64,000 nt of DNA from Bacteroidota bacterium (lineage in GTDB: Bacteria; Bacteroidota; Bacteroidia; Cytophagales; Cyclobacteriaceae): positions 149,961 through 213,960 of the forward strand of contig JAFDYU010000019.1 of NCBI GenBank assembly GCA_018267285.1. The letters are read 5' to 3'. How positions within the stretch are numbered: position 1 is the first letter of the stretch; each line of letters begins with the position of its first letter. This document shows, piece after piece, positions 21,920 to 28,100 of the stretch. The notes below the pieces were generated by a model. It was given only the letters and a program-made list of their open reading frames with translations, made no database searches and was not told the DNA's origin. A program made the translations under genes and the position numbers.

Positions 21920-21991
21920 GGTCCGTTCGTCTAGGGGTTAGGACATCAGATTTTCATTCTGGTAACACGGGTTCGATTCCCGTACGGACTA
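21920..21991 (+). tRNA. tRNA-Glu (anticodon UUC)
   Basis: A full cloverleaf folds from 72 bases. Acceptor arms GGTCCGT/ACGGACT pair over 7 bp including one G-T; the anticodon arm TCAGA/TCTGG carries the loop TTTTCAT with anticodon TTC at positions 34-36; the T arm is CGGGTTCGATTCCCG. The CCA end is not encoded. A promoter lies in front and a strong terminator behind, so it is transcribed singly. It is followed by a broken integrase gene, which suggests that its 3' end served as an integration site. Confidence 0.96.
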
Positions 21992-22016
21992 CAAAAACGC
22001 CTATTTTTTTTAATTT

Positions 22017-22082: not shown

Positions 22083-22895
22083 ATGAATAGAACATATTAT
22101 GGCACATTTAGTTGCAAAATAATTCTTGCACCTTACAAAAGAGACAATGGAGATCGGATGGTGTATTTGCGGGCGATTATTAACCGCATTGAGAAGAGAA
22201 TCGCGCTCGGGTTTTATTTGCGCGATGAATTTTTTGATAAAAAAACTGGCCGGGTGAAAACATCTCACCCAAACGCAGATAATTTCAATACAGAACTTTT
22301 ATTGGCTGTTGCAAAAGCAAACAATATTGCATCGGTGTTTAGGCAAAATAAAAAAATGTTGACCTCTAAGTTGTTCAAAGAAGAGTTTACAAACCCATCT
22401 GATGAACTTGACCTTATTAAATTCATTGAACTTGAATTGAAATTACGAACTCCTGATTTGTCGTTCAGCACGATCAAGCAGCACAATACTGTAATTAATA
22501 AATTAAAGTTGTTCAGTAAAGTGATAAGGTTTAGAGATATAAACCCTGATCTTATGCATAATTTTAAAAATGGACTTATCAAACAAGAGTTACACAACTC
22601 CACGATCAATAAGTTGTTGAAGATTGTAAAGCAATATTGTGCTGACGCGAGGAAGAAAGGTCATGAATTTGAAGATCCATTTCTTACAATAAAAATAAAA
22701 ACTTTTAAGAGCAACCGCATTGCACTAACTGAGAAAGAGCTTAAGCGTATTGAAGAGTATTATAAAAAAGGAGATATTCCTCACAACCACAAAAAACTAT
22801 TGCGTTACTTTCTATTTAGTTGCTTTACCGGATCTGCCCGTGGTCGGTGTTATCACCGCACCGCCACAAAATGTTTAAATTTGAAACATGGATAA
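22083..22895 (+). pseudogene. tyrosine recombinase (integrase), truncated by a RAYT element
   Basis: The frame gives an Arm-type DNA-binding domain (about 10-75), a SAM-like core-binding domain (about 115-215, with IKQHNTVINKLKLFSKV and NSTINKLLKIVKQYC) and the start of the catalytic domain (LTEKELKRIEEYY, then LLRYFLFSCFTG). At FTG, exactly where the first catalytic arginine (TGLR) is expected, the sequence enters the inverted end of the transposase element at 22836. The last 20 residues are encoded by the element. The catalytic R-H-R-H-Y set is missing and no continuation is found beyond the element, so the gene is dead. It starts 91 bp behind tRNA-Glu, the usual place for an island integrase. 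Confidence 0.85.
22836..22859 (+). repeat. left REP-like inverted end
   Basis: Starts TGCCCGTGG and ends in the hairpin CGGTG-TTAT-CACCG. It is a perfect inverted copy of 23432-23455. Its outer edge marks the point where the integrase frame breaks. Confidence 0.75.
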
Positions 22896-23400
22896 CGGTA
22901 TCGAATTTTTCACTGCAACATGTTTGAACTGGCGGCCGCTGCTTCAGTTCGATGGACGGAAAGACATAGTGATGAACAGTTTGAGATTTTTGGTTAAGGA
23001 CAACCGGATCTGGCTTTATGGTTTTGTCATCATGCCCAACCACCTCCACCTGATGTGGAGCAAGCAGAATGAATGGGTTAGCAAAAGCGTATCGCAGATG
23101 TTTTTGAAATACACGGCACAGCAGATAAAATTCGGTATGCAGAATCAGTACCGGGAAGAGTTGGAGGGCTACCGGAGCACTCAATCGGACAGGCAATACC
23201 ATTTTTGGGAAAGAAGGTCTTACCCCGCCACGATGCACAACAGGAAGGTGGCCTCGCAGAAGATTGATTATATGCACTATAATCCTGTGAAGGCTGGATT
23301 GTGCGCGTTGCCGGAGCAGTACCATTATTCATCAGCACGCTATTACGAATTAAACCAAGATGATTGGGGGTTTATTACGCATTATGCCGAACATTTATGA
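22888..23400 (+). CDS. REP-associated tyrosine transposase (IS200/Y1 superfamily)
   Basis: 170 residues. The HUH motif is HLH in IMPNHLHLMW, with the ITA..L strand before it (FFTATCLNWRP). A tyrosine in the helix QMFLKYTAQQI is the likely nucleophile. HYNPVKAGL near residue 135 is a signature of RAYT proteins (YIHNNPVKAGL). RAYTs are single-strand transposases domesticated to mobilise REP or REPIN repeats. The ORF overlaps the end of the truncated integrase frame by a few bases and lies wholly within the inverted ends. The frame looks intact, so the enzyme may be functional. Confidence 0.87.
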   Translation: MDNGIEFFTATCLNWRPLLQFDGRKDIVMNSLRFLVKDNRIWLYGFVIMPNHLHLMWSKQNEWVSKSVSQMFLKYTAQQIKFGMQNQYREELEGYRSTQSDRQYHFWERRSYPATMHNRKVASQKIDYMHYNPVKAGLCALPEQYHYSSARYYELNQDDWGFITHYAEHL

Positions 23401-23456
23401 AGGGGAATTTATTTAATGTGAATGTGTGGTTCGGTGATAACACCGACCACGGGCAA
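23389..23456 (+). repeat. direct repeat A, copy 1 (RAYT 3' end plus right REP)
   Basis: This 68-bp block holds the last codons and stop of the transposase gene, an AT-rich spacer and the right REP. It recurs at 24030-24097 with two mismatches. Confidence 0.8.
23432..23455 (-). repeat. right REP-like inverted end
   Basis: Starts CGGTGATAACACCG and ends CCACGGGCA on the plus strand. It is the exact reverse complement of 22836-22859. Confidence 0.75.
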
Positions 23457-23512
23457 GGTACTAAACCTCTTCCATCGGGAAACATTTTTAACTCGATTAA
23501 GACAGATTAAAT

Positions 23513-23659
23513 ATGAATGCTTCAATTGTTTTAGTTGTCATTTATTTGGTTTTTTTATTTGGCTCGTTTTATTTGTATCGCTGGGCAGTTGCAGTGAAAG
23601 GGGAGTATTATCTACCTGTATATATTAGGGTACTTTGTTTTGATGAATTTTTATCTTGA
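23513..23659 (+). CDS. small single-pass membrane protein, hypothetical
   Basis: Not recognised; 48 residues. One hydrophobic helix (ASIVLVVIYLVFLFGSFYLY) is followed by a basic-aromatic tail (RWAVAVKGEYYLPVYIR). It lies right behind the RAYT element and overlaps the next small ORF by 17 bp. In RHS regions such small membrane proteins may be immunity partners, but nothing here proves it; the pair could also be halves of one frameshifted gene. Confidence 0.35.
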   Translation: MNASIVLVVIYLVFLFGSFYLYRWAVAVKGEYYLPVYIRVLCFDEFLS

Positions 23660-23828
23660 CTTCGTCAATTACATTCATTACACCCTTCGAGATGATGGAA
23701 TCTATATAGAATTTGGACATGCAAGTATATTGCTCCTATTTTTATCCTTTGTCTGTTATTTAACGGGAGTTGTATTTGTTATTTTATTGTTGGTAAAGAG
23801 AAACAAAGGAGTTCGGAGCGAGCAGTGA
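23643..23828 (+). CDS. small membrane protein, hypothetical
   Basis: Not recognised; 61 residues from the ATG at 23643, inside the end of the preceding ORF. One strong helix (SILLLFLSFVCYLTGVVFVILLLV) is followed by a basic tail. The N-terminal 25 residues are polar and aromatic (NYIHYTLRDDGIYIEF). It ends a few bases before the RHS remnant. Low certainty because the region is a mosaic of fragments. Confidence 0.35.
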   Translation: MNFYLDFVNYIHYTLRDDGIYIEFGHASILLLFLSFVCYLTGVVFVILLLVKRNKGVRSEQ

Positions 23829-23834
23829 CATTGA

Positions 23835-23969
23835 GGAAATTACTTCACATTAGGGCTAACCTTCAACTCCTATCAACGGGAAATCAGTGTGCCGCAGAAC
23901 TATCTCTACAACGGCAAGGAGAATATAAGTGACTGCCGTGTGATTTTTATGGAAGGAAGGGTTGATTGA
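23835..23969 (+). pseudogene. fragment of an RHS repeat-associated core protein
   Basis: The frame between stops reads GNYFTLGLTFNSYQRE and then VPQNYLYNGKE. FNSYQRE...NYxYNGKE is the characteristic core signature near the end of RHS/wall-associated proteins of Bacteroidota. Only about 30 informative residues remain, and the frame then diverges and stops. No start codon or upstream YD repeats are present. It is a remnant, probably left when an RHS locus with its toxin tail was deleted or replaced. Confidence 0.7.
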
Positions 23970-24030
23970 GCTGAGTTATGTTGTTTGAAAGAAAAGAGAA
24001 GCACAAGCGAGACGCTTGCGCTAGAAAGAG
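23937..24030 (+). repeat. direct repeat B, copy 1
   Basis: A block of about 94 bp beginning CGTGTGATTTTTATGG and ending in the hairpin GCACAAGCGAGACGCTTGCGC. It recurs at 24101-24192 with several differences. It follows directly on the RHS fragment. Confidence 0.7.
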
Positions 24031-24097
24031 AACATTTATGAAGGGGAATTTATTTAATGTGAATGTGTGATGCGGTGATAACACCGACCACGGGCAA
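24030..24097 (+). repeat. direct repeat A, copy 2 (orphan RAYT end with REP)
   Basis: A second copy of the transposase 3' end and right REP (REP at 24073-24096), 66 of 68 positions identical to 23389-23456, without any transposase body. It marks a former second RAYT copy or a duplication. Confidence 0.8.
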
Positions 24098-24100
24098 AGC

Positions 24101-24192
24101 CGCGTGATTTTTATGGCCGGAAGGGTTTTGATTGAGCTGAGTTATTTTGTTTGAAAGAGCGAGCACAAGCGAGACGCTTGCGCCAGAAAGAG
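24101..24192 (+). repeat. direct repeat B, copy 2
   Basis: Second copy of block B, starting CGCGTGATTTTTATGG and ending with the hairpin GCACAAGCGAGACGCTTGCGC and CAGAAAGAG, 8 bp before the first possible start of the lipoprotein ORF. Confidence 0.7.
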
Positions 24193-24220
24193 GTTAGACG
24201 TGCATTTAGAGAAATTGTTG

Positions 24221-24946
24221 ATGAAAGTTTTCCAAATAATTGTTCTCACTCTATTAATTGGCTGCAAACAGAAAGCTCATACCCAAGCTACTTTGAAAAG
24301 CAATCTAATTGATTTAGATAGTTACCAAGCTGAGAAAGTAGATTTGAACGACATCTATAAAGGTCATCCGTTTCTCCATAAAATAGGTGCTCAAGATGAA
24401 TTTTCAATTGGAGATAAACTTGAAAGTCTAAAAGTCGCAAAATATACCGTCAAAAATGGGGAATCAGATTTATTCTTAAGCAAACTTGAAATCCGTAACG
24501 GAGATAAGGTGGTTTTCACAATGGATAGTGTCCTTAATATGGGCATGTACTTCTTTGAAAAGAATAAGAATATGCTTGCAATTCCAATCATATTGAGCCA
24601 AAGTGAGGATCTAAGCATTGAGACTGAATTATATGTTTTGGATTTAGATGACAATCACATTATAAAGCTTGATGAGATTCTTACCAATTGTTCCTTTGCG
24701 TTCATCTGCCCCAATGGAAGTGTAGTTATATATAACTCTGCGGATAAGATATTGTCCTATAATTTAAACACGAACGAAAAGCGGATTTTAGCTGACTTTG
24801 ATAATCCGGACATAAGAATTATTAAACTAGGAATTGTTAATGATTTGACAGAAATTTTTTATTCTGATGACTTTTTGAATGATTTTATTGAACACAAACA
24901 AATTAAACTAGTTAAGTTTAGGCTTACTGAAGCTACATGTAAATAG
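24221..24946 (+). CDS. hypothetical lipoprotein with possible beta-propeller fold
   Basis: Not recognised; 241 residues from the ATG at 24221, which gives a good lipoprotein signal (MKVFQIIVLTLLIGC, cysteine at 15). The GTG at 24200 would put seven extra residues in front. The body is rich in short strands with repeated turn motifs (ELYVLDLDDNHIIKL, SVVIYNSADKILSYNLN), like WD40/6-bladed propellers with a missing half (full-length 6-bladed relatives such as BF2992-type proteins are about 380 residues). It stands behind the RHS remnant and repeats. Codon use is more AT-rich than in the core genes, consistent with accessory origin. Confidence 0.65.
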   Translation: MKVFQIIVLTLLIGCKQKAHTQATLKSNLIDLDSYQAEKVDLNDIYKGHPFLHKIGAQDEFSIGDKLESLKVAKYTVKNGESDLFLSKLEIRNGDKVVFTMDSVLNMGMYFFEKNKNMLAIPIILSQSEDLSIETELYVLDLDDNHIIKLDEILTNCSFAFICPNGSVVIYNSADKILSYNLNTNEKRILADFDNPDIRIIKLGIVNDLTEIFYSDDFLNDFIEHKQIKLVKFRLTEATCK

Positions 24947-25125: not shown

Positions 25126-28100
25126 TTACCCGCCACTTAAAATAAACGCCCCCCAATAAAACGGTTCGGGATATTTTTCTTTCACGGCTTGCTGCGCAGC
25201 ACGGTATGCCTCGGTTAAGCTTTTGTTTTTAATCCAGGCTCTGTAAAAGGCCGTCATAAAAAGATGTGTGGCTTCGTCATCTACTTTCCAAAGGCTCATT
25301 AAGATGTTTCGCGTGCCGGCCATAAAAAAAGCACGCTGTAAACCATAGACGCCTTCACCATTTTTTACTTCGCCCAGCCCTGTCTCGCACGCGGACAAAG
25401 CCACGAGCACCGTTTGGTGCAATGGCAAGGTAGATGCTTCGTAGGCGGTGAGTATTCCATCTTCATTTTGGTTGTTGGTAGACTGAATTTTTTGTTGACA
25501 ACCCGCAAACAACAACCCCGATCGCGTTAATGGATTGGTTGCTTTACCTTGACGCGGTTTTGTTAAAAAATATCCATGCGTTGCGATGTGCAGCGCCTGT
25601 GCCGATTTAATTTTTTTTATTGCTTCTTCTGTAGCATCGGCCCCTTGGTAAGCTGCATACGGTATCCGGCCTTCAGTCATCAATGAAGTTAGGTCGGTTA
25701 GCTCAAGGGCAGTGCCGGGCAGATCGCTTACATTTTCCAGATCGAGCGAGCGGGTGAGGTCTGCTTTTTTCTCGGCAGACGGAGCACCGTAGTTGGGATG
25801 TGCAAAAACTACGAAGTTATTGAGGTCAGGCGTTGGCGATTTTTTTTTGAGAAGCCGTGTTGTGGAAGGCACATAGTGAATGTTTTTTTCTTCACCGAGA
25901 AATTTATTTGTGTTAGGATTATAGAGCGTGCCAAAATTTATTTGATGGAAAATGCCGTCTGCTGAACAATAGACTGTACTGCTTCCCTGCAAACTTTTTT
26001 GAAGAGGTTCCCAATAGTGCGAATAGGAAACCAAATCTTGCTGAAGTGATTTTATTGAGTTTCGATAAAACTTAAACGATCTTCCTTCCAAATCGCGGGC
26101 AGACCCCAAGCGAACGATCTCGGGTTTTGTTAACGATGGTTTAATCACGAGTGCGTAGTAAGAGGTGTCAATCCCTTCGGGTTTATCGGAAATCGTAAAA
26201 ACTATTTCTACAGCCGCCTCGTTGGCAGTCAGGCTTTTTTGCACTTCTTTCCACGAAACGGATGAAAACGTTAAGCTTAAACCGGCATCCGCAACTTTAG
26301 CTGAAATTTGTTTTTCTAATCCGTTGAGGTAATCTTTTTTTTTCTCCATCAGATTTTTGTCGTACGAATCTTCCTGCAGCATTTTTCCATATTCATTTTT
26401 TAGTTGCTGCCACTGAACGAAAAGATTTTTTAGTTGAGAATCGGTTGAGCTATAAATCGCTTCGCGTGTTGCGTGGAGCGAATGAAGCACAATACCTTTT
26501 TGATCTAGCACCAGGTTGCACCAACTTTCGGCAAGCCCCGGCACGTAGCCTGAATGTTGTGCCGCAAAACCCATGAAACTGCGAATCACATCATGGGTGG
26601 TTTCGTAAAACTGCTCTTTCTCAACTTCGCTTAAGTATGGAAAAACACGTTGTATATATTTTTGGTGAAGCACAATTGCCTTTTTATAGTTGGCAAAACT
26701 AGTAGCGTAATCTTCTCGCAACTCAGATTTTTTCGCAATCAGGAAGAGCACATTAATTAGAAACGGATGGTTTTCGCCCCAGTGGGCTTTCACTTGGTTA
26801 TACACGTAAGTATAGTCTCGGTCGGCCTGACGAGGCTCTTGGTTCAATTCATGGATCGTTGCACGAACGAGGTACGTGTCTATAAAGTCTGGCGAGAAAG
26901 CTCTTTCACGCAACGATTCAAAAATAGAAATGGCTTCGTCTGTGTATTGGCCGGCCGATGTCAACTTTGCCGCCTCCGGCTTGGCCAGGTTTTGCATTAG
27001 ATAAATGGTGCCAAGCCTGGATTTTAGTAACGACAGATTTCTTTTTTCTAGATCGCTCAACGAATTAAAATCATGAGTTGAGTAAATACCTACAGCTTCC
27101 TTAATGTAACTAAGGCAAGTTTCCCAATCTTTGCGTGCAAACGAAACATCGGTAAGCAACAAAAGCGTGCGGGCATATTCCAACGATTTTGATCCAAACA
27201 AATTAGCTGCGATCTCTTTTCGCTGCTGTGCAGTTGCTTGCAGCTTTTCGTAGTTGCCCAGGGATGTATAGATCAAAGAAAGCTTTGAAAGGAATTCCAG
27301 ATAAGCCGGATCGGTATGAACTTTGGTTTCATAAATTTTTTTAGCCTTGTTAATGTATTCATCGGCCTTGGGTATGTCTCCTTTTGCAACGAACAGCTCG
27401 GCAAGAGAGGCCAGTATTTGTGCATACTCTTCCGATTCAGCACCACGTGTAGAGCCGATAACCGACAGTACTTGATTCCATTCGGTTTCTGCTATGGCAT
27501 ACTTTGCTTCACCCACATGAATACGTGCCAGCAAACCGAGTGCTGTATAATAATATTCGGATGTCTCGCCATATTGTTTTTTTAATTTTGGAAGTTCGGA
27601 CGCGAGCAATTGTTCGCCACTTGTAAGTTCGCCCATATCGAAATATAAAGTGGCCAGATTGAAGATATTGGACAAACGCAAGTACTCGTGTTCAATCGGG
27701 TCTGCATCAAATATAATTTTGGCATCGCTAAGATAGGTGAGTGCGCTGCTGTAGTCGTGAAGGTAATAGCAAGCCGTGCCTATATCTTGCAACACCGATG
27801 GCAAGTCGGGGTGGTTTCCGTTGAAATAGCTTGAGTTGTAATTCAAAAACTCTTTAAGTTTTGCTTTAGAGGCCGACCAATCTTTTATTCGCCTGTAGTG
27901 CGAACCGAGACTGCTTAGTGTGTTGAGCAGTAAGGTGTCGGGCTGTGAGTGGATTATTTTCCGTACGGCAACAACTTCTTCTTTGAAGTAAATGGTCTGC
28001 TCGTACTTATTTTGGAGACCACATACAATTCCGAGCCAATCGGCTACGGTGGCGTATTCTTCGCTTTCGCGAGAATAGAATGCCTCTGCGTTTTCGAGCG

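Follow-up and report, generated by a model that had tools for sequence, protein, structure and literature searches.

Sequence comparison indicates that, in this genus and order, RAYT units are found both as recent whole copies and in the form of deletion derivatives, contrary to the published picture of these genes. The unit at 22835..23455 (plus strand) of the window, by which we mean the whole analysed stretch of 64,000 nucleotides on C10, one of the 25 contigs that make up this 3.33-Mb genome, is a REPtron, in which an HUH/Y1 RAYT gene lies between two inverted REPs of its own, and we consider it probable that RAYT units act as transposons with MITE derivatives in this lineage. With somewhat more reserve, we favour the reading that the RAYT and its REPs still form a self-moving transposon here, the deleted derivatives of which are arising and spreading, and that the lineage preserves a living stage between elements of the IS200 type and the domesticated RAYT/REPIN systems known from Proteobacteria.

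The anatomy of the window element is that of a normal REPtron, as judged from an exact inverted pair, the terminal score and the protein family. Its ends form a perfect 24-nt inverted pair (22835-22858 and 23432-23455) that extends to 28 nt when one mismatch is allowed; a search of the window at 500-700 bp spacing gave no exact inverted pair of greater length, and the terminal inverted score of the unit is 24 versus a maximum of 9 in 200 shuffles. The left REP (22835..22862, plus strand), with a 22-nt core that is repeated in the genome, and its inverted copy, the right REP (23428..23455, minus strand), were both located by inverted-pair search and folding. The end sequence reads TGCCC-GTGG-TCGGTG-TTAT-CACCG and folds as a single-stranded hairpin (left REP -8.0 kcal/mol, z -2.7; right REP -9.7 kcal/mol, z -3.7), so that the succession of a GT(A/G)G head and a hairpin by which REPtrons are recognized is present with GTGG as the head. 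Four comparison REPs, three from relatives and one from the second RAYT family of this genome, fold better (z -5.2 to -7.5) than the window copies. The first-pass annotation had described perfect 24-bp inverted ends with a GTGG head and a CGGTG/CACCG hairpin, all of which are present; it placed the right end correctly at 23455 and the start at 22836, one base too far in, the outer limits of 22835 and 23455 being inferred from multi-copy units in relatives.

Between the ends lies, as annotated, an intact HUH protein of 170 aa (ORF 22888..23400, plus strand) with an HUH motif (H52, H54) and a tyrosine (Y128), all three of which are invariant in the nine aligned proteins (the window protein and eight relatives). 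The protein matches the NCBIfam equivalog model for RAYT, NF047646, with 87.1 bits at a cut-off of 80, which places it in the RAYT branch of the Y1 HUH transposases and, together with the exact inverted pair, supports the annotated RAYT with REP-like inverted ends. Moreover, phmmer returned a weak match to the solved TnpArep structure 4er8 (E 0.0045). In four of nine tested proteins NF047646 scores 59-76 bits, below its cut-off of 80, yet it is still their best NCBIfam family; in Pfam, the protein of L012 weakly matches DotU alone and those of L076 and L125 match nothing. The nearest RAYTs found among named genomes come from Flammeovirgaceae and other Bacteroidetes metagenome genomes, followed by Pedobacter (12 loci), where P. 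psychrotolerans has a relative at 62%.

The inverted ends do not by themselves show mobility, since the REP-RAYT-REP arrangement is the usual one: in a survey of 33 hand-chosen loci, conducted with no shuffled control and leaving out L024, L032, L039-L046 and L084, 27 had inverted ends around the RAYT scoring at least 14 ungapped, and the six scoring below 14 include one locus where a contig begins and another with an incomplete gene. REP stems vary between RAYT families, while the inverted arrangement is constant. Clean inverted ends were rejected on these grounds as proof of mobility. Likewise, the view of the first-pass annotation that an element with clean ends is less usual in Bacteroidota does not hold, as the arrangement is common there and RAYT-like genes with flanking structures are known from Bacteroidetes, according to the accessible part of PMC6006769. 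At two Pedobacter loci (L077 and L079), direct repeats of 93-98 bp, 92-98% identical, stand on both sides of the RAYT and are possibly REP doublets.

Whole-unit duplication was assessed by same-genome comparison of 89 RAYT loci from 28 genomes (133 locus pairs plus within-locus comparisons), these loci being a selection of matches, mainly the longer ones plus a few others, from a collection with one genome per species; 25 of the 28 genomes gave two or more RAYT loci. Full-unit pairs with at least 90% identity were found in five of the 28 genomes, four of them from the genus of the window (G000, which is this genome, G001, G023 and G024) and one from the same order (G054), and their similarity stops just outside the outer REP edge. 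In this genome, the units on C2 and C18 are 96.0% identical with gaps and 98.4% over 634 aligned bases; they belong to a RAYT family 47% identical to the window RAYT, and the C18 copy has a stop. The pairs of the other genomes reach 90.8% in G001 (one copy at a contig start), 99.7% over 740 in G023 (copies 4.7 kb apart) and 94.6% over 734 in G024 (copies 6.7 kb apart), and G054 carries three unit copies at 94.8-97.5% plus a second family at 94.7%. The terminal inverted scores of the duplicated units range from 18 to 41 versus shuffled maxima of 8-11, and their 80-bp flanks are unrelated in 18 of 19 comparisons from ten pairs (the second G054 family left out), the exception being the G024 left flank with 11 versus a shuffled 95% value of 10, just above. 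Two of these results call for a more guarded reading: a second, separate stretch of 371 bp (96.8%) is common to the C2 and C18 loci, on opposite sides of the unit, so that their surroundings are not wholly unrelated, and the G023 and G024 duplicates are close enough that local recombination could also yield them. Furthermore, the duplicated units represent RAYT families 24-47% identical to that of the window and not its own subfamily, for which G071 has two copies just 75.5% alike over 462 bp, one of them incomplete. No common target sequence was visible by eye at the outer flanks of the units, and a frame-interruption test on joined flanks, in which the longest frame arose at an own-genome unit, carries no evidential weight. 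Other repeats in G022, G028, G054 and G055, a third G023 copy at 82% and the G024 C95/C81 pair at 80.8% (contig start) were not counted.

On C2 of this genome (L012, 1191-1441), the full unit of the second family is immediately preceded by two head-to-tail pieces of its right end (136 bp at 99% and 118 bp at 97% identity), and similar tandem right ends are seen in L073 (3461-3733).

Internal-deletion derivatives were found within the RAYT subfamily of the window itself. G003, the RAYT of which is 70% identical to the window RAYT, contains three derivatives of about 215 bp with the same internal junction, each joining about 82 bp of the left end to about 128 bp of the right end; two lie within about 2.2 kb of the RAYT on its contig and the third on another contig, and their flanks are unrelated. 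They are mutually 90.7-94.0% identical, two of them having been compared over stretches offset by 3 bases, and a separate comparison gave 94.9% for the first pair. The G003 alignments are thus evidence that fragments with a REP at either end have arrived at new sites. In addition, the single-contig genome G023 has a 489-bp copy without the unit middle as well as several single-end pieces. The derivatives of both genomes keep both ends but are few, and so differ from REPINs, which occur in many copies. The earlier suggestion that the element behaves like a mobile unit is not borne out by the window copy itself; it draws its support from the whole-unit duplicates and the deleted derivatives.

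In the genome of the window, the 22-nt REP core occurs five times exactly and ten times within two mismatches (reversed control 0), and the 24-bp end is therefore not a single occurrence, which the first-pass annotation had named as speaking against its reading. The whole unit as query gave 26 matches in its own genome, many of them to the REP only. Seven further pieces, of 43-152 query bases, extend beyond a REP or exceed its size, with left-end pieces on C2 (98% identity), C11 (95% and 91%), C18 (85%) and C24 (81%) and right-end pieces on C10 (97%) and C24 (88%). Six of the seven reach the RAYT gene, the right-end piece on C24 covering the spacer and REP alone; the 95% piece on C11 (query 30-181) is without the terminal bases and adjoins a REP. 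An internal 35-bp piece of the unit lies on C19. None of the own-genome pieces found with the whole-unit query retained both unit ends, and the REPIN pattern of two inverted REPs with a short spacer in many copies was not seen among them. Across the genus, a related REP pattern (2 mismatches) occurs in 33 of 62 genomes with at most 19 matches per genome, a maximum in which some palindromes are counted twice, once per strand; the reversed control matched 13 of the 62 genomes (14 matches), so many of the single matches are chance.

Several REP-bearing regions show further local structure. On C11 of this genome (L014), identical 31-nt direct repeats at 1005-1035 and 1219-1249 flank a REP and a 5' piece of the RAYT unit, and this piece stands at an apparent gene 3' end, as if insertion had duplicated the gene end. 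Related REPs are grouped on contigs C1 and C2 of G063 (17 matches, mostly GGTTGGTGTTTTCACCAAC), and several stand together on contigs C34 and C60 of G003.

In the first-pass annotation, the RAYT unit was said to have cut an integrase gene beside tRNA-Glu. A tRNA-Glu (ttc) indeed adjoins the integrase (21920..21992, plus strand, ARAGORN), and the 5' part of a tyrosine-recombinase integrase gene (22083..22835, plus strand; Pfam PF17293 and PF13102), comprising the arm-binding and SAM-like domains only, is broken at the left REP. The break was placed exactly before the catalytic arginine. Eight homologue loci (23-30% identity) were fetched, of which seven gave an alignable frame and one (L054) none; the alignment reached the FTG of the window integrase in five of the seven, followed by LR in four and GIR in one. 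With the arginine that we take to be the catalytic one, the placement is right to one residue and not exact. A plain insertion would leave the catalytic half at the right of the element. No integrase was seen there when 23456-24500 was read by eye in all six frames, PF00589 is absent from the window, and the genome has its seven PF00589 matches at other places, in frames of 299-534 aa; on these grounds, a position of the other integrase half to the right of the element was rejected. Insertion alone thus does not explain the junction; the frame is broken as claimed, insertion as the cause is unconfirmed with the 3' half missing, and an insertion of the unit into the integrase is plausible but incomplete as an account. 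The remainder of the earlier observation was confirmed, and its interpretation is partly supported.

No closer intact homologue of the window integrase was found among 39 genomes searched, six of which, own genome included, matched the integrase query, with 23-30% identity in the others. When the window was searched for a further copy of the tRNA-Glu end that could serve as an att repeat, just the tRNA itself was returned, and such a repeat was rejected. At eight same-genus loci (L186-L193), the same gene, which we take to be GAPDH, neighbours a tRNA-Glu at a comparable distance, and other frames follow this tRNA; inspection by eye of up to 1.3 kb after the tRNA-Glu showed an integrase-like frame in none of the eight, and among these genomes the integrase query matched G002 only, on another contig. 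The second condition that the first-pass annotation had set against its own reading, a junction conserved in relatives as an ordinary gene arrangement, thus points in two directions: REP-RAYT-REP is indeed ordinary, but the junction with the integrase is not conserved.

The region between the tRNA-Glu and a large opposite-strand gene ending at 25126 consists of about 3 kb of broken, repeated sequence. To the right of the unit it is a patchwork of two copies of another repeat and a 67-bp second copy of the right end (24030..24096, plus strand, 97% identical), which comprises the last 12 bases of the RAYT gene, the spacer and the REP. The two copies of the other repeat (23935-24030 and 24099-24192) are 88% identical, and each contains the palindrome CAAGCGTCTCGCTTG (24004-24018 and 24166-24180). 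The same palindrome frames a RAYT family in G054 (L089-L091) and is absent from the ends of all five own-genome RAYT loci inspected, and may therefore represent an orphan REP family. A short frame at 23853-23921 reads LTFNSYQREISVPQNYLYNGKE, which resembles what we take to be an Rhs core motif, and is apparently a gene remnant.

This context bears on the possibility that the window unit is a domesticated, immobile REPtron as in Proteobacteria, with the integrase junction arising from deletion or recombination that ended at a REP. We regard this as unlikely. It agrees with the absence of the integrase 3' half, with a right flank made of fragments and repeats, with the one full-length copy of the window RAYT subfamily in this genome, and with published descriptions, in the accessible parts of the sources, of RAYTs as single-copy or without evidence of mobility (PMC3116915, PMC6006769, PMC8266576, PMC8049555). 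Whole-unit duplicates in five of 28 genomes and the three same-junction derivatives in G003 argue against it.

Units might also have multiplied through homologous recombination or gene conversion, acting between REP pairs that the sites already had, the RAYT being a passenger and its protein unneeded. Similarity that ends at the REPs is what would be expected were these the recombining sequence, REP arrays lie beside the G054 units, and the second-family pair of that genome (L090/L091) ends inside one. Such copying appears quite unlikely to us, considering that REPs of about 30 nt would be short for homologous recombination and that G003, G023 and the first G054 family share extra bases beyond the hairpin at both ends.

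Returning to the preferred reading of RAYT units as transposons, the RAYT would, by homology with TnpAREP, recognize its own REP, a hairpin with a GTGG head, in single-stranded DNA and would cut just outside this head. The cut unit, or a part keeping one or both REPs, could then be joined into new places, whole units representing the transposons and shortened derivatives the MITEs of this lineage; single-end pieces could result when one cut falls at a REP and the second somewhere inside the gene. In the window, the unit or one of its ends may have landed in the integrase gene beside the tRNA-Glu, and the catalytic half of the integrase, because it is absent on the other side of the unit, would have been lost in the same or another event. 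A CC stands a few bases outside the head or stem in most units, near the end of the copied region, the left end of the G024 unit being an exception, and this position is consistent with RAYT cutting without proving it. According to the accessible text of PMC8266576, the head helps to choose the cutting site in the Marinomonas REPtron, where a GTGG head gave cutting at CA and CC, and the inverse REP is said to undergo no binding and cleavage in the E. coli and Stenotrophomonas systems.

Near-identical units together with same-junction derivatives in one genus provide a natural system in which to ask whether a RAYT is able to mobilize the gene that encodes it, and also whether REP repeats arise by internal deletion of a RAYT unit. 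Movement of the whole package would run against the usual statements on the RAYT gene family. Bertels 2017, on domesticated transposases, reportedly sorts RAYTs into groups possibly differing in mobility, and part of the contrast with immobile RAYTs may, given these groups, already be in print. In the accessible parts of the literature searched, we found no report of mobile RAYT units in Bacteroidota, and the published accounts, as far as their accessible text goes, leave the origin of REPINs open (PMC3116915, PMC6006769, PMC8266576, PMC8049555).

Among known systems, an ordinary IS200/IS605 insertion sequence in place of a RAYT is highly improbable: HUH/Y1 motifs are shared, the window protein has a Pfam Y1_Tnp match below cut-off (17.2 bits vs 23) and some of its relatives weakly match the IS200 model, yet in NCBIfam the window protein matches, up to E 1, NF047646 alone and does so above cut-off, the profile search gave no match to the IS200 model NF033573, and known elements, in the accessible part of PMC2817692, lack terminal inverted repeats whereas the window unit has a perfect one. 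IS200/IS605 elements and their MITE derivatives resemble the units described here in their Y1 transposase, end hairpins and mobility as a unit, and differ in the protein family model and in that the hairpins of the window unit are inverted to each other. A TIRtron likewise has a tyrosine transposase gene (TIRYT) between terminal inverted repeats, but these are described in the accessible text of PMC3733652 as unrelated to GTAG repeats and as carrying GGGGWSAS, whereas the window ends are GTGG hairpins.

Further comparisons rest on the accessible part of PMC6006769. TnpAY1 subclass 2.6 is likewise mostly from Bacteroidetes, with flanking structures that have copies elsewhere in the genome; it is said to have no GT[AG]G consensus and weaker structures, whereas the window REP has GTGG, the two being compared by description. 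TnpAY1 class 3 resembles both insertion sequences and REPtrons and includes three closely related genes in one genome, so that Y1 genes that have REP-like ends and occur in several copies are not entirely without precedent; set apart by its description and not by sequence, it occurs in Planctomycetes, Acidobacteria and Proteobacteria and has the foot CnGA. The same source also notes, for one subclass, that tnpAREP genes have invaded recently.

REPINs, in the accessible part of PMC3116915, are likewise short, bounded by two inverted REPs and presumed to move through a RAYT acting in trans, and one possibility offered there is that they originated as flanking sequences of an IS200-like element. 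Unlike REPINs, the 215-bp G003 and 489-bp G023 derivatives retain both RAYT-unit ends, and their origin by internal deletion is therefore directly readable. The proteobacterial REPtron is alike in its HUH/Y1 family, its inverted REP hairpins with GTGG heads on both sides and its cognate REPs elsewhere in the genome. It differs in REP number, usually above 100 according to the accessible text of PMC2817692 versus 10 within two mismatches here, and in that REPtrons, according to the accessible part of PMC6006769, do not seem to transpose as a unit, whereas this lineage has near-identical units in multiple copies.
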